A DNA stretch of 37,706 nucleotides. It comes from Nitrosomonas sp. GTDB lineage: Bacteria; Pseudomonadota; Gammaproteobacteria; Burkholderiales; Nitrosomonadaceae. Positions 8,787-26,909 of the stretch are shown here, one piece after another. The stretch spans positions 1 through 37,706 of the forward strand of contig NZ_JAIEME010000031.1 of NCBI RefSeq assembly GCF_019752415.1. The letters are read 5' to 3'. Below the pieces are notes generated by a model. The model saw nothing but the letters and a program-made list of their open reading frames with translations. It did no database searches and was not told where the DNA came from. How positions within the stretch are numbered: the stretch's first letter is position 1; each line of letters opens with the position of its first letter. The translations under genes and the position numbers were made by a program.

Positions 8787-9440
8787 ATGAGTCAGGAAGT
8801 TCCTCCATTAGATCCACATCCGTTGAGTGAATATGTTGCGTGGGCAGGTGGGCGTAATCGTGAGCCCATTTTAGGTGTGTTGAAAGATAAGTTGCCGAAA
8901 GATCCTGAGCGCGTTCTGGAAATGGCCAGTGGCAGCGGTATGCATATTAATTATTTTGCACCCCATTTTGAGCATCTGCATTTTTATCCGACTGATAAAG
9001 ATACTGATGTTTTTGATAACATTAAGAAATTAACTGGAGACCTCGACAATAATAATATTGCAGATCCAGTTCATTTGGATTTGACGGATCCACAGACCTG
9101 GTTCAATCCAGGGCCGGGAAAAACATTTGCTGCTATTTTCTGCATCAATATTTTTCAGGTGGCGCCAATTTCAATTGCCGATGGTATGATGAAGTGTGCT
9201 GCGCATTTACTCAAAGATGACGGATTTCTTCTGATCTATGGGCCCTTCCAGATTGAAGGACAATTTTCTACCGATTCCAATAAATCTTTCCATGAAACAT
9301 TAAGTTCTGTGGGTGTACCCGAATGGGGATTAAAAGACATCGCCGATTTAAAAAAAGCGGCTGCCAATCATGGATTGGAGTTGAAAGAAAAGATTGATAT
9401 GCCTAGCAATAATTTTTCACTCATCTTCGGTAAAATATAA
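8787..9440 (+). CDS. DUF938 family SAM-dependent methyltransferase
   Basis: A predicted class I methyltransferase of the DUF938 family, 217 residues. The family N-terminus runs HPLSEYVAWAGGRNREPILGVL. The SAM-binding loop is VLEMASGSGMHINYFAP, an E-x-G-x-G-type motif with Ser in the first Gly positions. An acidic residue follows beta-2 (YPTDKD), and AAIFCINIFQVAPIS matches the post-I region. The Shine-Dalgarno sequence AAGGAGT is strong. Its stop codon overlaps the start of the next gene by one base (TAATG), so translation is probably coupled. The methyl acceptor is not known for this family. Confidence 0.85.
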   Translation: MSQEVPPLDPHPLSEYVAWAGGRNREPILGVLKDKLPKDPERVLEMASGSGMHINYFAPHFEHLHFYPTDKDTDVFDNIKKLTGDLDNNNIADPVHLDLTDPQTWFNPGPGKTFAAIFCINIFQVAPISIADGMMKCAAHLLKDDGFLLIYGPFQIEGQFSTDSNKSFHETLSSVGVPEWGLKDIADLKKAAANHGLELKEKIDMPSNNFSLIFGKI

Positions 9441-14848: not shown

Positions 14849-15511
14849 TTATGGAGTACCTATTCTCAGCAAAATTGTATTTTCCTGTAACCGGCTCAGA
14901 CCGCGTTCCTGAAAACGCGGATTTTGTTCGAGCACATCCTGCTGTGACAACAATGTGATCGCGGCGTACGGTTGATAGAGTGCAGTAACTTCATCCATGG
15001 AAACTGCAAACGGCGGGCCGGACATCTCATGCTGAGGGTAGTTGAGTGTGATGAGCAGGATTTGCGTTGCGGGCGGAAGAATATGCAAAAGGTGATGTGC
15101 ATAGCGTTTACGCATTTCCGGCGGTAATGCGATTAATGCCGCGCGGTCGTAGACCGCAGTAATTTTTGCTACAGCATTTTTATCCAAATCAAAAAAATCC
15201 CCACACAGAATGTGCATGTCATCTGCTTCCAGATGGGTGAATGGATCATGCACCCTGCATTGGGGTGTCAGGCCATTCTCTGTAAAAAATGCTTGTGCTG
15301 CAACCCCACTTAATTCGACACCCAAAACTGTATGCCCTTGTTGATGCAGCCAAAGCATATCGCGGCTTTTACCGCACAATGGCACAAGCACCGCACTACC
15401 CGGAGCAAGCTGTAAGCGCTGCCAATATTGATCCAAATATGGATTGGTTTCATTCTGATGAAAACCGATATCTTGCCGTTCCCAACGGTCCAGCCAGTAT
15501 TCTTTCTGCAT
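14849..15511 (-). CDS. tpm: Thiopurine S-methyltransferase family protein
   Basis: A SAM-dependent methyltransferase of 220 residues. Bacterial members methylate thiols and detoxify tellurite or selenium oxyanions. The N-terminus EYWLDRWERQDIGFHQNETNPYL and the motif-I region VLVPLCGKSRDMLWLHQQGHTVLGVELS are classical Tpm. AVYDRAALIALPPEMRKRYA and LLITLNYPQHEMSGPPFAVS also match. Its ATG overlaps the allophanate hydrolase stop by one base (TAATG), making it the last gene of the guanidine operon and probably translationally coupled. No terminator is seen after it. A role in guanidine use is not established; co-expression is what the sequence shows. Confidence 0.93.
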   Translation of the reverse strand: MQKEYWLDRWERQDIGFHQNETNPYLDQYWQRLQLAPGSAVLVPLCGKSRDMLWLHQQGHTVLGVELSGVAAQAFFTENGLTPQCRVHDPFTHLEADDMHILCGDFFDLDKNAVAKITAVYDRAALIALPPEMRKRYAHHLLHILPPATQILLITLNYPQHEMSGPPFAVSMDEVTALYQPYAAITLLSQQDVLEQNPRFQERGLSRLQENTILLRIGTP

Positions 15512-17328
15512 TATGGGTTAGCCAATTGTCGCAGGTAGTTGCGCCATCCGCCCGAGTAACTGATATCTGCAGCATTTTCGATAGCATAATGTTCGCAGAG
15601 GAAACCTGGTAGGGTGTCACCGTTTGCCAAGGTTATCGAGCCGATTCCCAGGGGCGCTGGAATACTGGCTACAAAACTACCCAATTCGCGGACTGGCAAC
15701 TCCCAGACTTCCACTTCAATCGAAACGCCCTGCGCATTGTTGTTTACGCGAATTAACCCAGGGCGTTGTGGAGGGTTGCCCGGTAATGCGTAGAGTCTAT
15801 AATCTGATGAAGTGGTGGTGGTTGCGATTAATCGACCCTGGCGGCTAATCAGTTGTCCATTTAATGGCAAACCGGATAAATGCGCGCCACAAACAATAAC
15901 ACGCACCTGATTCGATAGAGAAACACCGGGAAAGCGGGTATTGGAGGGAAACGTAATGCCAGTTGCGCCCAGTGGGAATGAATAAGCTCGCTGCAAAAGG
16001 TGAGCAAGCTGCAGCAAGGGTTCATCCTGATGGGGCGGTGCTGCCAGCGTTATGCCAAAAGGCAATCCGTCTCTCTGAAAACCAGCAGGAACGGCTACCG
16101 CGGCATAGTCGAGCAGATTCATGAAGTTCGTGTAGTAGCTCAGATTAGTATTCAAGCGGATAGGATCTTGCTGCATGGCTTGAATGGAATAAATCGTGCC
16201 GGCCGTTGGAGTCAGTAAACAATCAACATTTGCATAAATCCGATCTGCTTCCTGTTTAATCCGGCGCAATTGATAGAATCCATTGAATGCATCTGTAGCC
16301 GAGCGCTGTTTCGCGGTTGCGATGATTTCATTGACCGGAGCAATGATCTGGTCACCATGCAATTCGAAGAATGATTGAATTGCCGCATAACGTTCGGCTA
16401 TCCAGGGGCCCCCGTAAAGTAGGCGGGCAGCTTCGAGGAATGGCTCAAAATCTATTTCAATGGTTTCTCCCCCCAGTTTCTGCATCTGGGCTACTGCTTC
16501 GTTGAACAACCGTTCACTTTCGCGATTACCGAAAAACTGTAGCTGCTTTTTGCGTGGAATAGCAAAGCGAAAATGGGGTGCCTCGCCAAAATTGAAGCCG
16601 TGTCCTTCTCTTTTTCTGGAATAGATATCGGCTGCATCGTAACCGGCAGAAATTGTCAGGATGCGTGCCGCATCTGCAGCAGTCAAGGTGAAGAGGGATA
16701 CCGTATCCAGGGAACGGCAGGCCGGGACCATGCCATGCGTCGAGAGCCAGCCTCTGGTAGGTTTATATCCGATCAGGTTGTTAAAAGCGGCGGGAACCCT
16801 GCCTGAACCGGCGGTATCGGTGCCGAGGCTGAAACATACTTGTCCCTTGGCTACGGCGACAGCCGAGCCTGAGCTGGAACCACCGGAAATATAAGCGGGG
16901 TTGAATGCGTTCCGGCAAGCGCCATACGGAGATCGTGTACCATTTAGTCCGGTGGCGAACTGGTCGAGATTGGTTTTGCCGATTGGAATGGCGCCTGCAT
17001 TGATCAACCTTTGCACGACAGTTGCGCTACCAGGAGGTGTGTACGCAAAAGCTGGACAAGCTGCCGTTGTGGGTAACTCTGCCAGATCAATATTATCTTT
17101 GATAGCGAAGGGTACGCCATACAGCGGGAGAGATGTCATACCTTCAGCTTCCACTTTGCGGGCATAATCGCGCAATGATTCCAGCGGGAGCGTAGAAATC
17201 CAGACATGATCGGGATCATTCTGAATCTCGACATGAATTGTTTCAACCAACTGAGTCGGTGAGTGTTCATTGCGCGCATAGCTTTGCAGCAACGCTGCAA
17301 TGTCACCAAGCGGTAAAAGCTTTCCCAT
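15511..17328 (-). CDS. atzF: Allophanate hydrolase
   Basis: It hydrolyses allophanate to two ammonia and carbon dioxide, the last step of the carboxylase route. The amidase-signature domain covers about residues 1-440. Catalytic residues can be placed: Lys77 in GVPFAIKDNIDL, the cis-Ser in SGGSSSGSAVAVA (about 151-153) and the nucleophile Ser175 in GTDTAGSGRVPAA. The C-terminal domain (about 455-605) has the AtzF-C stretches VIVCGAHLSGLPLNGQL and DISYSGGWRNYLRQ. Length is normal at 605 residues. The start lies 2 bp after the carboxylase stop, with AGGAAGAAA inside the end of that gene. The downstream tpm overlaps it by 1 bp. All catalytic residues are present. Confidence 0.95.
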   Translation of the reverse strand: MGKLLPLGDIAALLQSYARNEHSPTQLVETIHVEIQNDPDHVWISTLPLESLRDYARKVEAEGMTSLPLYGVPFAIKDNIDLAELPTTAACPAFAYTPPGSATVVQRLINAGAIPIGKTNLDQFATGLNGTRSPYGACRNAFNPAYISGGSSSGSAVAVAKGQVCFSLGTDTAGSGRVPAAFNNLIGYKPTRGWLSTHGMVPACRSLDTVSLFTLTAADAARILTISAGYDAADIYSRKREGHGFNFGEAPHFRFAIPRKKQLQFFGNRESERLFNEAVAQMQKLGGETIEIDFEPFLEAARLLYGGPWIAERYAAIQSFFELHGDQIIAPVNEIIATAKQRSATDAFNGFYQLRRIKQEADRIYANVDCLLTPTAGTIYSIQAMQQDPIRLNTNLSYYTNFMNLLDYAAVAVPAGFQRDGLPFGITLAAPPHQDEPLLQLAHLLQRAYSFPLGATGITFPSNTRFPGVSLSNQVRVIVCGAHLSGLPLNGQLISRQGRLIATTTTSSDYRLYALPGNPPQRPGLIRVNNNAQGVSIEVEVWELPVRELGSFVASIPAPLGIGSITLANGDTLPGFLCEHYAIENAADISYSGGWRNYLRQLANP

Positions 17329-17330
17329 GA

Positions 17331-20300
17331 TTAATTTTCTTCCTGAATGACGAAAAGTACCTGTCCGGCAGAGACATATCCGCCTTGTTTGCAGAATATC
17401 TGTCGCACGGTGCCAGTGACCGGCGCGTCTACCGGGAATTCCATTTTCATCGATTCGATCATAATAATCGCCTTGCCTGCATCCACACGGTCACCTTCTT
17501 TCACCAGCAGTTTCCAGACTGTGCCCGTGACTTGCGAACTGACGGCTTGTGCCCCCTGCGGCAGATCCAATTCGCTCTGGGTATCCGCTTCGTCGAGCAT
17601 ATCTTCACTGACATACTGTGATTGGCCATTGGCTTCCCAGCGCTGGCGTTCGGCTTCAAACGCAGCTTGTTGAGCGGCCTTGAATGCGGTGATGCTGACA
17701 GCATGTTGTTGTAAGAAAGCGTTGTATTGTTTCAGACTCAGAACCGTTTCTTCGGTACGCAGTTTGAAGCGCCCGCTAATGAAATCCTTACGCAGCTTGA
17801 GCAGTTCGCTTTCATTGACCGGATAAAAGCGGATTTGATCAAAGAAACGCAATAACCAGGGTTTGCCTTCTTTGAAGTCGGCCGTTTGACGGTAGCGGTT
17901 CCACATGGGTATTGTACGTCCGACAAATTGATAGCCGCCAGGACCTTCCATACCATACACGCATAAATAGGCACCCCCAATGCCGACGGCATTTTCAGGT
18001 GTCCAGGTACGTGCCGGATTGTATTTGGTGGTGACAAGACGGTGACGCGGATCCAGCGGGGTGGCAACGGGCGCGCCCAGATAGACATCGCCCAGCCCCA
18101 TGACCAAATAGCTGGCCGCAAATACAATATGTTGAACATCCTCGATTTGCGCCAATCCGTTAATGCGGCGGATAAATTCGATATTGCTGGGACACCACGG
18201 AGCGTCGCTGCGTACCGATTGCATGTATTTTTCAATGGCCAATCGTGTGGCGGCGTCATCCCAGGATAGAGGCAAGTGGATGATGCGCGACGGCACTTCC
18301 ATGTCATTGATGGCGGGCAGCTTGCTTTCCCCTGCAATCAGAAGATCTAATAAAGTCTCGCGAGACAGCCGGTTGGAATCAAAATGAATCTGCAGTGAAC
18401 GAATACCAGGTGTCAGATCCAGAATTCCGGTCAGCTCCCCGGCCTCGATGCGTTGCTGTAGCCAGGTCATCAATGCATGCGCGCGAAAGCGCAAATTCAG
18501 ATCGAGCACGGGCGGTCCATATTCAATCAACAGATATTTATCGCCGGATTGGCGGTAAGTCACTTGCACCTGCTCCGTGTGCTCGCGAATGCAATGCAGA
18601 ACTGGGCTGCCTGGATTTCCGGAATGAGCGCTGGTAATAGGAATTTGATCAACACGAAGCTGCTGAATAAGCAGATTCTGCTGTTTTTCCAGTGCAAGTG
18701 CATGCGCCAGAGCGATGGGCAGAAAGCGAACGCTGTCACCCGGTTTGAGTTGTCCGGTTTTCCACAATTCCGCATGAACTATGGTGACCGGACAGACGAA
18801 ACCACCCAGACTAGGACCATCAGGTCCCAGGATAATCGGCATATCGCCGGTAAAATCGACAGCGCCAACCGCATACGCGTTATCGTGAATATTCGAGGGA
18901 TGCAATCCGGCTTCGCCGCCATCGGTTCGCGCCCATTGCGGTTTAGGGCCAATTAAACGGATACCCGTGCGGCTGGAGTTATGATGTACTTTCCATTCAG
19001 CGGCAAAGAAATGTTCGATATCCGCTTCTGTAAAGAAATCAGGCGCACCATGCGGTCCAACCAACACGGCGATTTCCCAATGATCCGTATAACGCGGGAT
19101 CAATTCCTGCGATAACTGTTGTGAAAGATGAGGCTGAGAGGGTTGTAAGGGCTGAATATGTAATACATCACCAACGCGCAGCACGCGCCCGGCGTGTCCG
19201 CCGAACTGACCGAGCGTAAAAGTAGATTTGCTGCCCAGGTAATCAGGCACCTGAAAACCGCCTTGCACGGCCAAGTAAACCCGGCTGCCCGATTGCTTGA
19301 CTTTGCCAATTTGCAACAGCGTTCCGGCTTTGGCGAAGTGAGATTGCCATTGGGACAATGGTTCACTGTCCAGTAACACATCGATGGATGCGCCGCAGAT
19401 TGCGATGATGCTGTCACAATTAAAGCGCAGCGTCGGGCCTGCCAGGGTAATTTCCAATCCGGCGCTATCTTCAGGATTGTTCACCAGCCGGTTGGCAAGG
19501 CGAAAAGCTAAGCTATCCATCGGTCCGGAAGGCGGAACGCCGACGTTCCAGTAACCGATTCGTCCCGGATAATCCTGTATCGTGGTTTGTACGCCCGCAT
19601 TCAGCACATCGATACTGTGCGGCTGATAATTGAAGCCATTGAGGAATTGCGTATACGGTTGTCCGCTGCGAAACACGGCGCTGTGCAGAATTTGTTTGAG
19701 ATACGCCAGATTGGTTTCAATTCCCTGTAATGACGTGTCATCCAGTACGCTCAGCAGTTTGGCGATTGCTGTGTCACGATCAGGTGCATGTACAATGATT
19801 TTTGCCAGCATCGGATCATAAAATGCGGATACCTCAATGCCGCGTTCTACCCAGGTTTCAACGCGTGCTGCAGTAGAAAATTCCGCTGCAGTCAGTATGC
19901 CGCTGGAAGGCTGGAAATCCTTGGCAGGATTTTCAGCATAAACCCGTACCTGAATGGACGCGCCATTGGGTCTGATGGTGAAAGAGTCGAGCGAAGGGAG
20001 CTCGTCTGCGGCTTGCCGTACCATCCATTCCACCAGGTCGATACCGGTGACTTCCTCAGTCACGCCATGTTCAACCTGCAGGCGCGTATTGACCTCAAGA
20101 AAATAAAATTGACCGCTGGCGGCATCGAAAATATATTCAACAGTGCCGGCGGATTGATAATGAATGGCTTTGCCAAGGCTTACCGCAGTGTCCAGCAATG
20201 CCTGGCGCAAATGCGGCGGGAGGTTGGGGGCGGGTGTTTCTTCGATGACTTTCTGGTTGCGCCGTTGCATGGAACAATCTCGCTCGCCCAATGCCACGAC

Positions 20301-20957
20301 TTGGCCTTTGCCGTCACCAAAAATCTGTACTTCAATATGGCGTGCCCGGTCGACAAATTTTTCCAGGAAAAGACCGGCATCCTTGAAATTGTTTTGTGCC
20401 AGATTCTTGACCGATTCGTAAGCGCCGACCAGCTCATCCTGGTTCCAGCACAGGCGCATGCCGATGCCGCCACCGCCAGCGGTGCTTTTCAGCATGACCG
20501 GATAGCCGATATGCTTAGCCTGATGACACGCCGCTTCAAGGTTTTCCAGCAGATCGGTTCCTGGCAGGAGCGGCACCTGATTTTTCAAGGCCAGCGCGCG
20601 CGCGGTATGTTTTAATCCAAAGGCGCGCATTTGTTGCGGGGTAGGGCCGATAAAACGAATCCCATGCGCAATACATTGCTCAGCAAAGTCGGCTTTCTCA
20701 CTGAGAAAGCCGTAGCCAGGGTGGATGGCTTGCGCGCCTGCTTGCTGCGCAATTTCCAATATTTTATCGGCGCGCAGATAACTCTCAGCCGCAATGCCGC
20801 TGCCGATACAGTAAGTTTCATCCGCTTCGGTCACATGGCGCGATAAGGCATCGGCTTCGGTATAAACCGCCACACTTTTTACATTCATGCGGCGCAGCGT
20901 ACGGATAATACGGCAAGCAATGGCGCCACGATTGGCAATCAAGACTTTCTCGAACAT
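17331..20957 (-). CDS. Biotin-dependent urea/guanidine carboxylase
   Basis: A single-chain ATP- and biotin-dependent carboxylase of 1208 residues. Domains run in the urea-carboxylase order. Biotin carboxylase spans about 1-445 ([20 protein letters not shown], the [15 protein letters not shown] loop, [18 protein letters not shown]). The KipA/AHS2 half of the carboxyltransferase is at about 447-770 ([21 protein letters not shown]), and the KipI/AHS1 half at about 795-1010 ([36 protein letters not shown]). A helical linker precedes a biotin domain, with biotin on Lys1171 in ESMKMEF. AAGGAT lies 7 nt before the ATG. Placement behind a guanidine-I riboswitch with two DUF1989 genes points to guanidine rather than urea as the substrate; sequence alone does not prove it. 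Confidence 0.93.
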
Positions 20958-21020
20958 AGCGTTATCCTTTTTCTTGATGATTCATTAGATGGGCTCCGTT
21001 AATCCAACTCGATTGATTCC

Positions 21021-21686
21021 TTACTGAGAATCCCAGACCAGTAAACGAATCGGTGTCGGGTTATAAGCATTGCAGGGATTGTTCAGTTGCGGGCAATTCG
21101 AAATCAATACCAAGACATCCATTTCAGCCTGCATTTCTACGTACATGCCGGAGGCAGAAATGCCATCGACAAATTCCAATCCGCCTGCTTCAGTCACTGG
21201 TACGTTCATGAAAAAATTGATGTTGCTCGGCAAATCACGCTTATTCATCCCAAGTTGCTGGCAAAGCGGATCATGCGCCAGGGCATGCAAAAAGCTATCA
21301 CGGCAGCTGTGCATCGGAAACTTCTCCAGCGCATAGCGCACCGTATTGCTTTCTGCCGCACAGGCACCGCCCAGTGTGTCGTGGCGCCCGCAGGTATCGG
21401 CTACGATCGTGAGCATGACATTGCCCAGGTTGGAGTAGAGCTTGCTGCCAGTGGTTAAATACAGTTTATTCTGGGCACGTATCGTATCCGTTGCGCTGTA
21501 GCGTTCCACAGCATGATTTGCGTTGAAGAACAACGTATCAACGGCTTGATTGCCTTCCAGATCGACAATGCGGAAAATTTGTCCTTGCTTCACGAGATTG
21601 ACCCAAGGCTCTCCAGCCGCACAGATTTCATCGATTATGGCGTGATGGGGATCAAACGGACTTGTAATGGGATAAGACGTATTCAT
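21021..21686 (-). CDS. DUF1989 urea carboxylase-associated protein; likely metal-bearing carboxyguanidine deiminase subunit (CgdA/CgdB type)
   Basis: A DUF1989 protein of 221 residues. In guanidine-degrading operons a pair of these forms carboxyguanidine deiminase, which converts carboxyguanidine to allophanate and ammonia. Core family stretches are [37 protein letters not shown] and [15 protein letters not shown] probable metal ligand set is visible: Cys109 in GGACAAESN with His126 and Cys128 in MHSCRD; Cys99 and His102 are nearby. The start ATG 21686 overlaps the upstream gene stop (ATGA), with GGAG 8 nt before it; the longer start at 21701 is less likely. The carboxylase begins 63 bp downstream. 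Which of the two genes corresponds to CgdA or CgdB I cannot say. Confidence 0.9.
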
Positions 21687-22408
21687 TTTTCGTCTCCACA
21701 ATAAAAATGTTGTGTATTCTTTAATGCGCGGATGTTTTCTGCGCTATGCAGGCATTCTGTAACTGCTTCCACAGGCGTGTTAAATACCGCCAGATTGACT
21801 GCACCAGGTTGGTAAGATGGCTTGGGATCCAGTGGATGCGGTGCGGCCGATAACACCACCAAGGTATTCATCACGAAGCTCAAATCAACATAATCACCCG
21901 CCTTGCTGTTCCCTGGTTGAAATGCCAGTTCACCGAGGGCATCCGGGGTGACTTTGCTGAAAAAATTGATATTGGAAACAATGTCACGCATCCCTAGTCC
22001 CCACTTACCCAATTCGATCAGCATGCCATCCAGACCACTGCGAGCCATTTCATTGCGATGCTCCTGGTAGCGCGCAACCCCGTATTTATGCTGAATTAAA
22101 TTGCTATCACTCAAGCCGCATACCGTGTCGTTCCAACCGGCGGTGTCGGCTCTGATGCAACAAAAAATCCGCCCCATGTCGGAATGGCAAGCATGCCCTT
22201 TGGTCAGACGGAAGGTGTGCTGCGATTTCAAGGTGTCGGCCATGTTGTAGCGTTCAAGTTTTTCTTCCTGATTAAAAAACAAAACAGCCGCATTTGCACC
22301 GCCCTGTAAATCAGTCAGACGTAACGTTGTGCCACGACGCAGGATGCCAGACCAGTGGCATCCGCCTGGGATGGATTGTTCCCAGATCAATGGATTGGGT
22401 TGATTCAT
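21683..22408 (-). CDS. DUF1989 urea carboxylase-associated protein; second carboxyguanidine deiminase subunit
   Basis: The paired DUF1989 protein, 241 residues. Family stretches are [68 protein letters not shown] and [25 protein letters not shown]. Unlike its partner, it lacks the Cys/His ligand set: the position of TCGRHD reads TAGWND, and MHSCRD reads YQEHRNE. It is therefore probably a structural or regulatory subunit of a heteromer. An excellent Shine-Dalgarno (AAGGAG) lies 6-7 nt before the ATG. The gene starts 25 bp after the permease stop and overlaps the next gene by 4 bp, so 1:1 translation with its partner is likely. Confidence 0.9.
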
Positions 22409-22433
22409 GATGAACTCCTTGTTGAAAATGATT

Positions 22434-23870
22434 TCACTTAATAGTTATCCATTTTTTGCAAAGGATATACAGCGTAGTGATCGTTAAAATGCTTCCTAAT
22501 ACCAGCGGAGTGGCCCACAATTGCCACCAGGGCGCATCCGCTGAAATCGCGTAGGGACGCGGCCAGGCGATATTGATGAGTTCAAACAATGACCAGATAA
22601 ACGCCAGGATATTGATGGCCAATCCCCATGCGCCCAGTTTTAATTCGCCCAGTGCGGGATTCCACCGGCCTGTGAGCCGGGCAAACAATGCAAAGCCTGT
22701 GGTGAACGCGAACATGGCGTATAAACCGCCGGTACCGAAAGCGATGATGGTCGCCACGGCGTCGTCATTGAGCCCAAATACCAATCCGCAACCTGCCAGC
22801 AGAACGGTGAAGAGAACCGCATTACGCGGTGTTTTGCTCGCCGTCACCTGACTCAACAGTGCTGGCATATTGCCTTCGCGCGCCATGGAAAAAACAATGC
22901 GTGAAGAGTATTTGACCATGGATGCGCCGCAGGCCAGGAAAGCAGTCATCACAATGGCCAAAAAGGGTTTTTCAAACCAATCGCCAATGCTGCTGGCGAT
23001 CAAGGGGGTAACGGGATCGGCCGTATGGCTGGAATTTCTCAATGTATCATGCTCAAAGGCTAAAATCAGCGCGGCTGAGTTAAATAAAACGACTGTGCCG
23101 ACAACGAGCAACGACATGAAAATTGCACGGGGTACCATGCGTTTCGGTTGATGGGTTTCTTCCGCGGTGGTGGAGCACGCATCAAAACCGATGAAAGCCC
23201 AACCGGCAATGGCCAGTGCCGCCAGGAAAGCAGCCATTTCACTGGGCGCTGTTCCGGTACCCATGTGCTGGAACAATTCCATGACAGGATGCTGACGGAA
23301 GAAAAAAAATAATAAGAGCGCCACGCCGAATGACCCGACGACTTCCGCGTAAACACCCAATTTGATTACAAGATTGAAAATGCTGACAGGAGCCAGATTG
23401 AGTAATGTGCAGATAAGCAGAAATATCGCACCCCAGAGCACCATCATGCCGCCGCCATCACCCGGCGATCCGCAAAAGGTGGCCAGCCAGAAGCCGCCGG
23501 TATAAGCAGTCGTGGTGACCATGGCGATGGTGGAGCAAATATAAATCACGCCGGCATATTGCCCGGCGATCGCGCCGCCGAGTTGCCGCGCCCATTTATA
23601 GGCCCCGCCAGCAATCGGAAACTGTGAAGACAATTCGGCGTAAACAGTCGCCACCAGTAGCTGCATGAGCAAACAGACCGCCAGCGCAGCAAACCATCCG
23701 CCACCGGCGACTACAGTTTGCACACCGATGATGGCATACAGTCCGGCAACCGGCGAGACAACCGCAAAACCGAGCGTGAAACTGTGCCATACACTCATGC
23801 TGCGATTGAGGGTGTTACCTGTTACATGGGTATCTTGCGAAGTAGCGATTTGTTTTGTTGAACCTGACAT
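22434..23870 (-). CDS. APC-superfamily permease of the urea carboxylase-linked type; putative guanidine importer
   Basis: An inner-membrane transporter with about 12 segments, 478 residues from the chosen start. The N-terminal helix-1 region reads SMSVWHSFTLGFAVVSPVAGLYAIIG, followed by SSQFPIAGGAYKWARQLGG, both typical of amino-acid/choline-type APC permeases. AGWAFIGFDACSTTAEETHQPKRMVPRAIF is also conserved. The frame opens at 23924 inside the riboswitch-linked hairpin. ATG 23870 (MSGSTKQIATSQ) is chosen because GGAGAC lies 6 nt upstream. It is the first gene after the guanidine-I riboswitch and before the deiminase and carboxylase genes, so uptake of guanidine is the likely role; other family members move amino acids. 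Confidence 0.88.
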   Translation of the reverse strand: MSGSTKQIATSQDTHVTGNTLNRSMSVWHSFTLGFAVVSPVAGLYAIIGVQTVVAGGGWFAALAVCLLMQLLVATVYAELSSQFPIAGGAYKWARQLGGAIAGQYAGVIYICSTIAMVTTTAYTGGFWLATFCGSPGDGGGMMVLWGAIFLLICTLLNLAPVSIFNLVIKLGVYAEVVGSFGVALLLFFFFRQHPVMELFQHMGTGTAPSEMAAFLAALAIAGWAFIGFDACSTTAEETHQPKRMVPRAIFMSLLVVGTVVLFNSAALILAFEHDTLRNSSHTADPVTPLIASSIGDWFEKPFLAIVMTAFLACGASMVKYSSRIVFSMAREGNMPALLSQVTASKTPRNAVLFTVLLAGCGLVFGLNDDAVATIIAFGTGGLYAMFAFTTGFALFARLTGRWNPALGELKLGAWGLAINILAFIWSLFELINIAWPRPYAISADAPWWQLWATPLVLGSILTITTLYILCKKWITIK

Positions 23871-23904
23871 AACCAGTCTCCATACAAAAGGGTTTACCGA
23901 GATT

Positions 23905-23927
23905 GTAATGTACTTCGAGTACATTAC
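23905..23927 (-). other. Perfect hairpin between riboswitch aptamer and permease start
   Basis: On the RNA strand, GUAAUGUACU and AGUACAUUAC form an uninterrupted 10-bp stem with a CGA loop, 5-6 nt after the aptamer. It is followed by AAUCUCGG, not a U-run, so it is not a standard intrinsic terminator. It may be part of the expression platform or an mRNA-processing signal. Confidence 0.75.
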
Positions 23928-23934
23928 GCTTAAC

Positions 23935-24032
23935 CTCCCGGGCTTTTATCCCTCCGTGGAGCCTCGTTATCACGAGACCGGAAACTCTTGGACCTGACGC
24001 CGTTGACAAAACCGGCCGGAACCCTAGTTTCC
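23935..24032 (-). promoter_or_regulatory. Guanidine-I riboswitch (ykkC aptamer)
   Basis: Reading the minus strand, the ordered ykkC consensus blocks are present: CTAGGGTTCCGG near 24027, then CAGGTCCAAGAG near 23993, then a hairpin GTCTCG-TGATAA-CGAGGC, then ACGGAGGGATAAAAGCCCGG and GAGG ending near 23935. These blocks and their order define the guanidine-I class, which senses free guanidinium and turns gene expression on. It lies about 65 nt before the permease start. No U-tract terminator follows. Instead, the segment CCGGUCUC (23981-23974) is complementary to the permease Shine-Dalgarno region GAGACUGG (23880-23873), including one G-U pair, so control could be translational. Exact stem borders are approximate. 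Confidence 0.93.
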
Positions 24033-24108
24033 CATTGAATTACTGCTTTTTGAGTTGCTATGCTGCCAATCGTTCAATTGGCGATTTAGAAAGCGAGTAA
24101 CGGTGGGC

Positions 24109-24137
24109 ATTTTAAATGTGCAATTTGGAAAAAGCAA
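24109..24137 (-). promoter_or_regulatory. Sigma70-like promoter for the guanidine operon
   Basis: On the minus strand, TTGCTT (24137-24132) and TAAAAT (24114-24109) are separated by exactly 17 nt. Transcription would start near 24102, about 70 nt before the guanidine-I aptamer. No better pair is seen in the 24033-24290 interval. Confidence 0.45.
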
Positions 24138-24391: not shown

Positions 24392-25582
24392 ATGTCTACA
24401 AAACTATCTGACGATTATTTGGAAAACCAAATAATCTCTTTGCAGAAGCATATTGAAGAATGGGCTAAAAAGCATGACTTGTGGTATGACTGCGGCTTTA
24501 CATCTTGGATAGAACGGTACGATGACGAGCCATATGAAAGTCCATGTGTACTGATTTTTTGTTTTGAAGGCCCTCTCTACAACGTATTTAATTTGGGTGT
24601 AGATGAATTAGTCGAGGAATTTGACGCATTAATAGAGTCAAATACAAAATTTTTCTATGAGATTGAAGACCATGTCACTATGTCTTTTTGGGTAAAAGAT
24701 GACGAGATTTCTCTAAATGCAGCCTTTAAAGATTTTTTTGAATGGAAGTGGATTGCTGGTCTAATTCAAGAAGATCATGGAGATATTTATGAAGAAATAT
24801 ATAGCAGAATTGATCGATCTCCCTTGGACTTGCATAAATTTTCTTCAAGACAATTTGAACAATTCCTAGATTCTGTATTTAAAAATAATGGGTACAGTTC
24901 TTTGCTTGGTCCGGGTCAAGGCGACGGTGGAATTGATTTAAGACTATATAGTGAAGATGCTGTTGGGGAATTTGTTACTCTGGTTCAAGCAAAAAGATAT
25001 GCGAGTAAAAACCCAATACGACTTGAAGCAGTCCAAGCTTTAAGCGCCGTAGTCGAAGACGAAAAAGCGAATAGAGGGCTTTTTGTTACAACGTCTAGAT
25101 ACTTGCCTGGCGTTAAAAAATTTGCGAAAAGGCAGAACAAAAAAATCATATTGGCTGATTCAGATAACATCGTAGAGTGGTCTAGAATTGCAAGTCAAAA
25201 AATTATAAGAGATAAATCAAATCTTGTTAGCAATTCATACATTCAAGATGTTCTGAACGGTAAATGCGGACAGGGGCTGGAAGGAAAAATATTCTGTGCC
25301 CACAAGGGCTATAATATTCACTATCATTCCTTTGCGATTGTGTTAAAAGAGGGCCGAAATGCGGTTTTGGCAATGAGCTTGCCGACCATGGTTTTTAGCG
25401 ATGATGGGTATGGCCAGATTGGGACACATATCCCAGATACAAAGTTTTCTAACTCATCAAGCAGCTATGTGATATTTAGGGCGAAGAAAAAGAAATCTCA
25501 AAGTGAGATAAACCTTTGGGGGCAAAGAGAACTCTATTCCCTTTGGGATGGGAAGCCTACTCCCTTTAATTACATGGATTAG
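24392..25582 (+). CDS. Mrr-like restriction endonuclease domain protein with novel flanking domains
   Basis: A 396-residue protein with a central Mrr_cat-type PD-(D/E)xK nuclease fold at about residues 148-255. It contains FSSRQFEQFLDSVFKNNGY, then GQGDGGIDLRLY (Asp178 and Asp182) and LVQAKRY (Gln199-x-Lys201), followed by RGLFVTTSRYLPGVKKFA. These are the expected catalytic and helix positions. The N-terminal ~145 residues (acidic, with SPCVLIFCFEGPLYNVFNLG) and C-terminal ~125 residues (HSFAIVLKEGRNAVLAMSLPTMVF) match nothing I know. Neighbours do not include a methylase, so it may be a Type IV-like nuclease or another defence effector. The gene is clearly AT-richer than the guanidine operon next to it, suggesting transfer. 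A GAAGAG ribosome binding site precedes the ATG. Confidence 0.8.
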   Translation: MSTKLSDDYLENQIISLQKHIEEWAKKHDLWYDCGFTSWIERYDDEPYESPCVLIFCFEGPLYNVFNLGVDELVEEFDALIESNTKFFYEIEDHVTMSFWVKDDEISLNAAFKDFFEWKWIAGLIQEDHGDIYEEIYSRIDRSPLDLHKFSSRQFEQFLDSVFKNNGYSSLLGPGQGDGGIDLRLYSEDAVGEFVTLVQAKRYASKNPIRLEAVQALSAVVEDEKANRGLFVTTSRYLPGVKKFAKRQNKKIILADSDNIVEWSRIASQKIIRDKSNLVSNSYIQDVLNGKCGQGLEGKIFCAHKGYNIHYHSFAIVLKEGRNAVLAMSLPTMVFSDDGYGQIGTHIPDTKFSNSSSSYVIFRAKKKKSQSEINLWGQRELYSLWDGKPTPFNYMD

Positions 25583-26332: not shown

Positions 26333-26674
26333 TTAGTAAGCAAATAACTCTTGCAGCCGAAGACACAATTCGACTTGAGTGGCTTCGTCGATCACGCCGA
26401 GTTTGCTGACTAAACGTACTTTATCAACGGCCCGAATCTGATCCAAGAGGATGAGACCTTGTTTATTTTTGAAAGTACAAGCAATCCGGCAAGGGAATTC
26501 AAAACTTTTGGTCGTCATCGGTGCCATGAGTACAGTCGATAAGGCGGATAGTTCATTGGGGGATATCACAACGCAAGGTCTGGTTTTGTTGATTTCCAAG
26601 CCTTGGGTAGGATCAAGCTGTACCAGCCAGATTTGGAACCGCAGAATCGTTGGGGTTACCAAGTTAATCATCAT
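26333..26674 (-). CDS. mazF: MazF/PemK-family mRNA interferase toxin
   Basis: A type II toxin of the MazF/PemK fold, about 113 residues. It begins MINLVTPTILRFQIWLVQLDPTQGLEINKTRPCVVISPNEL, the signature beta strands with the family Gly and RPCVV motifs. It continues with VLMAPMTTKSF, FKNKQGLILLDQIRAVDKVRL and a C-terminal helix. The conserved Arg in the NKTRP loop and the Thr of MTT are present, so it should be active. The GTG at 26692 would give a longer form; one of the two adjacent ATGs (26674 or 26671) is preferred. Either start overlaps the mazE stop by a few bases, so the toxin is translationally coupled to its antitoxin. Confidence 0.9.
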   Translation of the reverse strand: MMINLVTPTILRFQIWLVQLDPTQGLEINKTRPCVVISPNELSALSTVLMAPMTTKSFEFPCRIACTFKNKQGLILLDQIRAVDKVRLVSKLGVIDEATQVELCLRLQELFAY

Positions 26675-26909
26675 CAGTGGATACAGGGGCACTCAGCCAT
26701 TCCTGATCCAGTGTTTCCTTGTTGTGGTTTTTTAGTGTGTTTTCGATGGCTTCCTTCCAGCCCGCTCTTGCACCTTTTTTGGGTGTAATCAATAAACCAC
26801 CTTCTACGACTTGTAATTGCAGATCCTTGCCTTCCAATTGCGCTTGTTCAATCAGTGGCTTGGGGATGCGGATGCCGTGGGAATTGCCAATTTTAACGAG
26901 GTGAGTCAT
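26664..26909 (-). CDS. mazE: MazE-type antitoxin, SpoVT/AbrB DNA-binding fold
   Basis: An 81-residue antitoxin. Residues 1-47 form the swapped-hairpin AbrB domain: VKIGNSHGIRIPKPLIEQAQLEGKDLQLQVVEGGLLITP. The acidic C-terminal tail (NTLKNHNKETLDQEWLSAPVSTDDD) is the usual toxin-binding segment. The start is ATG 26909, with no strong Shine-Dalgarno but GCTTCCCC upstream. It precedes and overlaps mazF. It should repress its own promoter, where a 12-bp palindrome lies between the -35 and -10 boxes. Confidence 0.9.
   Translation of the reverse strand: MTHLVKIGNSHGIRIPKPLIEQAQLEGKDLQLQVVEGGLLITPKKGARAGWKEAIENTLKNHNKETLDQEWLSAPVSTDDD

Follow-up and report, generated by a model that had tools for sequence, protein, structure and literature searches.

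A putative guanidine-inducible operon for import and full breakdown of guanidine in a Nitrosomonas, and the uneven presence of its allophanate hydrolase gene in the genus

The DNA analysed here, referred to as the window, is a whole stretch of 37,706 nt from Nitrosomonas sp. (assembly GCF_019752415.1, contig NZ_JAIEME010000031.1; all coordinates refer to the forward strand). Its minus strand carries, at positions 14849–24038, a guanidine riboswitch aptamer followed by genes for an APC permease, a CgdA/CgdB-type pair of DUF1989 proteins, a carboxylase, an allophanate hydrolase (AH) and a TPMT-family protein. It is highly probable that these genes form a guanidine-inducible operon for the import and full breakdown of guanidine in a Nitrosomonas. 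The parts and their signatures are seen in the sequence, while every activity is predicted from them. Operons of this kind have already been published for betaproteobacterial ammonia-oxidising bacteria (AOB), and the copy in the window is not new in kind. An earlier description made from the letters of the window (the sequence-only reading) had listed the aptamer, the permease, two DUF1989 proteins, a full-length biotin carboxylase and AH, all of which are present in the range it gave; the TPMT-family gene inside that range had been left unnamed. The tight packing it described is also found. One base is common to the AH stop codon and the TPMT start, and the CgdA stop overlaps a candidate ATG of CgdB at 21686, which is a likelier start than the listed TTG.

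All four enzyme families (CgdA, CgdB, carboxylase and AH) score above their curated cut-offs. The DUF1989 proteins belong to two different types, one each of TIGR03425 and TIGR03424, as expected for CgdA plus CgdB, which we take these two models to represent. In the carboxylase the match to TIGR02712 covers residues 2–1205, with the biotin carboxylase (BC), CT_A_B, CT_C_D and biotinyl domains present. AH has both its amidase and its C-terminal domain, and residues 40–601 of 605 align with the solved AH 4gyr. The order APC permease–CgdA–CgdB–carboxylase is contiguous in 43 of the 59 related loci L001–L059.

Guanidine carboxylases are told from urea carboxylases by Asp at the positions 1330 and 1584 of the Kluyveromyces lactis enzyme (PMC11410670), and the same Asp/Asn rule is given in the review PMC12186494. 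In an alignment to 5i8i, D701 of the window carboxylase stands opposite Asn1330, and D957, within a GLGD motif, corresponds to Asp1584 (K. lactis number counted by hand). Hence, the alignment of the carboxyltransferase site with characterised enzymes that the sequence-only reading had proposed yields the guanidine type at both residues. Both Asp are kept in all 83 aligned carboxylase rows, i.e. the window, 80 loci and two shortened paralogs. The predicted protein thus bears the published guanidine-carboxylase signature. Together with the guanidine aptamer ahead of the genes and CgdAB in between, the two Asp make guanidine by far the better guess for the substrate. That the operon serves guanidine rather than urea is supported by the aptamer, the two Asp, the CgdA/CgdB pair and the complete AH. 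The NCBIfam model calls the carboxylase a urea carboxylase, so that default annotation would label these genes as urea degradation, as had been anticipated.

In the proposed pathway, guanidinium bound to the aptamer would keep its 3' end from pairing with downstream RNA, and the genes would be expressed, as the riboswitch family and the conserved pairing described below suggest. The permease would bring in guanidinium, the biotin enzyme would carboxylate guanidine using ATP and bicarbonate, CgdAB would deaminate carboxyguanidine to allophanate, and AH would split allophanate into two NH3 and two CO2. The net yield would be three NH3 per one ATP, available for assimilation and for ammonia oxidation.

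The aptamer matches the whole covariance model (1–107) and lies well above the gathering score of 63. Of the 44 related loci that allow a judgement (those among L001–L059 with the permease on the plus strand and more than 500 bases in front), 43 have the aptamer no more than 500 bases ahead of the permease, so that a chance match can be dismissed; the single miss, L033, comes from a metagenome-assembled genome (MAG) titled Nitrospira. A conserved pairing probably joins the 3' end of the aptamer to downstream RNA as the expression platform. In an alignment of 22 leaders, a structure of 15 pairs shows standard pairing in 92.4% of its cells. Six pairs are changed on both sides, five of them in the inner hairpin and one in the outer CCGGGA/UCUCGG helix, in which 87.9% of the cells are paired. 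These pairing and two-sided-change values were equalled in 0 of 500 shuffles, and sliding the partner by 1–3 columns leaves only 33–45% paired. The 22 rows were chosen by eye from 47 leaders for similar hairpin shape, which favours the structure in these statistics. An alignment-free count finds a complementary hexamer in the 50 bases after the aptamer for 33 of 53 aptamers (window plus L001–L059), compared with 2.6% in shuffled stretches; eleven of the other 20 reach only four Watson-Crick and two G-U pairs, and nine reach none. An intrinsic terminator was rejected as the platform, as the hairpin is not followed directly by a T run in the leaders judged by eye. The listed start of the permease reading frame, 23924, sits within a hairpin stem common to relatives, and the ATG at 23870, preceded by GGAGAC at 23881–23876, has counterparts in the leaders of close relatives. 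Consequently, 23870 is probably the true start.

Table 1. Features of the putative guanidine operon in the window.
Feature	Coordinates	Strand	Basis
Guanidine-I (ykkC) riboswitch aptamer	24038-23933	-	RF00442, 92.1 bits, E 1.4e-15
Candidate expression platform	23897-23941	-	CCGGGA (23941-23936) pairable with UCUCGG (23902-23897) around hairpin
APC-superfamily permease, predicted guanidine importer	22434-23870, reading frame open to 23924	-	PF13520; TIGR03428 below cut-off
CgdA-type carboxyguanidine deiminase subunit, putative (DUF1989, UAAP1)	21683-22408	-	TIGR03425 320.7 bits, over cut-off; PF09347
CgdB-type carboxyguanidine deiminase subunit, putative (DUF1989, UAAP2)	21021-21701	-	TIGR03424 339.4 bits, over cut-off; PF09347
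Predicted guanidine carboxylase (default annotation: urea carboxylase), 1208 aa	17331-20957	-	TIGR02712 1962 bits; two-Asp signature
Predicted AH with amidase and C-terminal domains	15511-17328	-	TIGR02713 782.9 bits, over cut-off; PF01425, PF21986
TPMT-family methyltransferase, 3' end of operon	14849-15511	-	TIGR03840 282.6 bits

Upstream of the operon lie an Mrr-type restriction endonuclease gene (24392–25582) and a PemK/MazF-family toxin gene (26333–26692). A search for repeats around the operon ends found none.

Palatinszky et al. 2024 (PMC11410670) found guanidine-degradation genes in 135 of 145 betaproteobacterial AOB genomes, exclusively of the carboxylase route and in most cases accompanied by an APC permease. 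Like the window, these bacteria, e.g. Nitrosospira multiformis, have a Guanidine-I riboswitch, an APC permease, carboxyguanidine deiminase, a two-Asp carboxylase and AH (PMC11410670), and N. communis Nm2 resembles the window's genome also in being without urease. The window differs from the published AOB operons in the TPMT-family gene trailing AH. The enterobacterial operons of Raoultella, Erwinia and Klebsiella (PMC12186494) share the three enzyme steps and the control by a guanidine riboswitch, but use an ABC importer and have a second, Guanidine-II, riboswitch ahead of the carboxylase and AH. In comammox Nitrospira inopinata (PMC11410670) a Guanidine-I riboswitch and an APC permease likewise feed an ammonia oxidiser; however, guanidinase and urease take the place of the carboxylase, CgdAB and AH.

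The sequence-only reading had supposed a Nitrosomonas-type nitrifier as host. The related loci support such a host, as do fragments of the amoC region at contig ends and the presence of amoA in 10 of 18 relatives from the same genus (it is absent from the other 8). The assembly comprises 2.96 Mb in 108 contigs and is 99.93% complete. Among the best 80 of 503 carboxylase matches, the nearest full-length ones are in Nitrosomonas records (L001, 91%; L002, 95%), and the top identity (98%) is that of L016, a 4-kb fragment with both carboxylase and AH from a MAG titled Nitrosovibrio, another ammonia oxidiser. No match to urease alpha was obtained in the window's own genome by a search that worked in controls.

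Several observations weigh against a working pathway of guanidine import and full breakdown in an ammonia oxidiser. Five AOB with the complete gene set, AH included, did not use guanidine alone according to PMC11410670, and a missing AH cannot explain this failure, because all five had it. The permease reaches 166 bits against a cut-off of 740 for TIGR03428 ('permease, urea carboxylase system'), the sole specific model. The lack of a T run directly behind the leader hairpin leaves the mode of the expression stop unexplained. Four related loci (L031, L034, L054 and L057) have the permease and directly then the carboxylase, but lack any CgdA/CgdB match and have no AH downstream of the carboxylase; these represent an even shorter version of the putative operon. 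Finally, amoA and HAO gave no match in the window's own genome by searches that succeed in same-genus relatives. Searches for amoB and the cytochrome c554 family were likewise negative in this genome, and these say little, there being no Nitrosomonas genome in which either search is shown to succeed. For the sequence-only reading, a genome lacking amo/hao would have lost the nitrifier part, and on the face of the searches this is the outcome; the amo part is better explained by an assembly artefact, the hao part is not. In G006, a relative assembled as a single contig, amoA and HAO are each present in three copies, and the amo-region DNA of G006 finds six pieces on five contigs of the window's genome. 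They correspond to both ends of amoC (PF04896) and to the DNA before it. Five of the six lie no more than 46 bases from a contig end (C49, 20562–20734 of 20734; C35, 26354–26604 of 26604; C93, from base 13; C89, 9020–9070 of 9095; C65, from base 46), and the sixth is on C35, 453 bases in. The assembly thus appears to break at amoC, and amo was probably lost in this way. The pieces account for amo only, leaving the absence of HAO unexplained.

AH is, judged by the gene content of the genomes, the labile gene of the operon in Nitrosomonas. In 85 genomes of the genus, matches to the carboxylase, AH and urease alpha were tabulated by hand. The carboxylase is found in 78 genomes, of which 32 have an AH over cut-off (G075 only by summing neighbouring pieces) and 46 do not. 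A quality subset (completeness ≥95%, contamination ≤5%) retains 60 of the 85 genomes and 59 with carboxylase; here 26 have AH and 33 lack it, 15 having neither AH nor urease alpha. Five of the 46 AH-less genomes (G015, G046, G056, G062 and G092) have a carboxylase that is itself cut or broken, G062 being the only one of them among the 33. Contig breaks could hide AH in some genomes but not in all, because G006, G051 and G052 are single contigs. AH in a genome is also not equivalent to AH beside the carboxylase, since in G065 the two are about 100 kb apart. Mapped on a 61-row carboxylase tree, the presence or absence of AH requires seven changes, gain and loss not being distinguished; three rows labelled AH-less (L035, L048 and L059) have fewer than 800 bases after the carboxylase. 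As far as we have seen, this pattern is undescribed: no mention of AOB without AH was found in the passages of PMC11410670 retrieved on absent or incomplete pathways, its supplementary tables lying outside the search, or in literature searches.

The close relatives of the window illustrate the change. G045 (L103, one contig) has the same order of carboxylase, AH and TPMT-family gene, with 96, 93 and 88% identity. In L001 (6941–7048) and L002 (12625–12731), about 100 bases between the carboxylase and TPMT-family genes form an AH deletion scar, which retains the first ~50 bases of AH and the last ~64 (by BLAST in L001, by eye in L002). Besides their junction, the two scars have several other changes in common. 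L001 and L002 group together weakly in the permease tree (support 0.87) and the TPMT tree (0.25); carboxylase trees place L002 nearer the window. Two independent losses were rejected on account of the shared junction and changes and the weak tree pairing. One deletion in a sister lineage would be the simpler explanation, despite the carboxylase trees. At another locus, L014 (also read as L089), an internal part of AH is deleted.

Three explanations for the presence or absence of AH were rejected. AH might be kept where urease is lost, allophanate decaying to urea for urease otherwise; the counts among the 78 genomes (both present, 23; AH only, 9; urease alpha only, 26; neither, 20) give a Fisher p of 0.23, with the trend opposite. 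Stand-alone proteins with the C-terminal domain of AH (PF21986) occur in at least 16 of the 46 AH-less genomes and might replace it; in the only context viewed of these 16 (L091, 4205–4684), the gene is flanked by a phage-integrase-family gene and a helicase gene, and the carboxylase is about 1 Mb away. A different gene after the carboxylase might do so, but the downstream reading frames of 28 loci form no cluster of more than four loci (by clustering only, no family scan).

The operon also varies in its other parts. Seven genomes, including those of the N. eutropha and N. europaea kind, have a second, shorter carboxylase without the BC domain, in which both Asp and the ESMKM biotin site are retained. 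In L093 and L094 this shorter protein ends the permease–CgdA–CgdB operon, and the full-length carboxylase is transcribed oppositely behind its own Guanidine-I aptamer. Two Guanidine-I aptamers stand back to back in L043, L047, L051, L093 and L094, one ahead of permease–CgdA–CgdB and the other ahead of the divergent full-length carboxylase. Compared with the window, L058, L041 and L046 have permeases of 91–93% identity and carboxylases of just 73–77%, so that the operon seems to combine parts of different histories. A Gallionella locus, L060, has a Guanidine-II aptamer (8939–8983) just before the carboxylase, besides a Guanidine-I aptamer.

From these distributions we tentatively propose that the guanidine pathway of Nitrosomonas is often cut short, a proposal which, with all its parts taken jointly, has slightly less than an even chance of being correct. 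The pathway would commonly end at allophanate, with the riboswitch, permease, CgdAB and carboxylase kept. AH would have been lost repeatedly, also in genomes without urease, and an AH-less operon would give one ammonia per guanidine, or serve detoxification. In the europaea/eutropha kind the carboxylase of the operon would have turned into a form without the BC domain, next to a divergent full-length copy that has a riboswitch of its own. The window would then belong to a minority keeping the full three-ammonia pathway.

The operon could instead serve mainly for detoxification, guanidine being removed as harmful and the gain of ammonia being secondary. With AH missing from 46 of the 78 carboxylase-bearing genomes, 20 of them also without urease alpha, many of these bacteria seem to retain the early part of the pathway but not its final, high-yield step. 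Furthermore, inhibition of N. europaea by 1 mM guanidine is cited in PMC11410670, and the same paper describes guanidine use by the tested AOB as partial and ammonium-dependent, three of five strains degrading part of it when ammonium was present. For the window, a predicted importer and an intact AH are an odd set for pure detoxification, and we regard this explanation as unlikely. It is very improbable that the TPMT-family gene takes part in guanidine metabolism and is more than a neighbour. In 12 of the 78 genomes it is the next gene after the carboxylase or AH, on the same strand (coordinates compared by eye), and in the window it shares a base with AH; it is non-adjacent or not found in the other 66, the family has matches in 65 of all 85 genomes (63 over cut-off) in varied places, and another contig of the window's own genome carries a second copy.

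Hardly credible, finally, is a urea amidolyase in which the carboxylase and AH degrade urea in place of the missing urease: its name in NCBIfam and the lack of a urease alpha match would fit, but the specificity position is Asp instead of the Asn of K. lactis, a guanidine aptamer stands in front, and AH does not behave as a replacement for urease among the 78 genomes. To our knowledge, CgdAB has no place in urea breakdown, and the K. lactis urea amidolyase does without it. Both the carboxylase and AH of the window align over most of their length with this amidolyase (5i8i, 3va7), which is one fused chain with Asn1330, whereas the window has separate genes. The genome paper of N. communis Nm2 lists urea carboxylase and a putative AH with urease absent, and in the paper on N. 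ureae Nm10, a strain capable of using urea, both enzymes are listed beside urease. However, Nitrosomonas sp. Is79, with a 'urea carboxylase' and a putative AH but without urease, formed no nitrite from urea, according to an unpublished remark of the authors in PMC3764937.

Among nitrogen compounds, free guanidine has been recognised only recently, and those ammonia oxidisers that carry the putative guanidine operon could make nitrite from it. The chief interest of the copy in the window is that it is complete and that its host shows no urease match. More useful is the pattern of AH across the genus, since it predicts differences between strains in the nitrogen yield from guanidine and shows which strains to compare.

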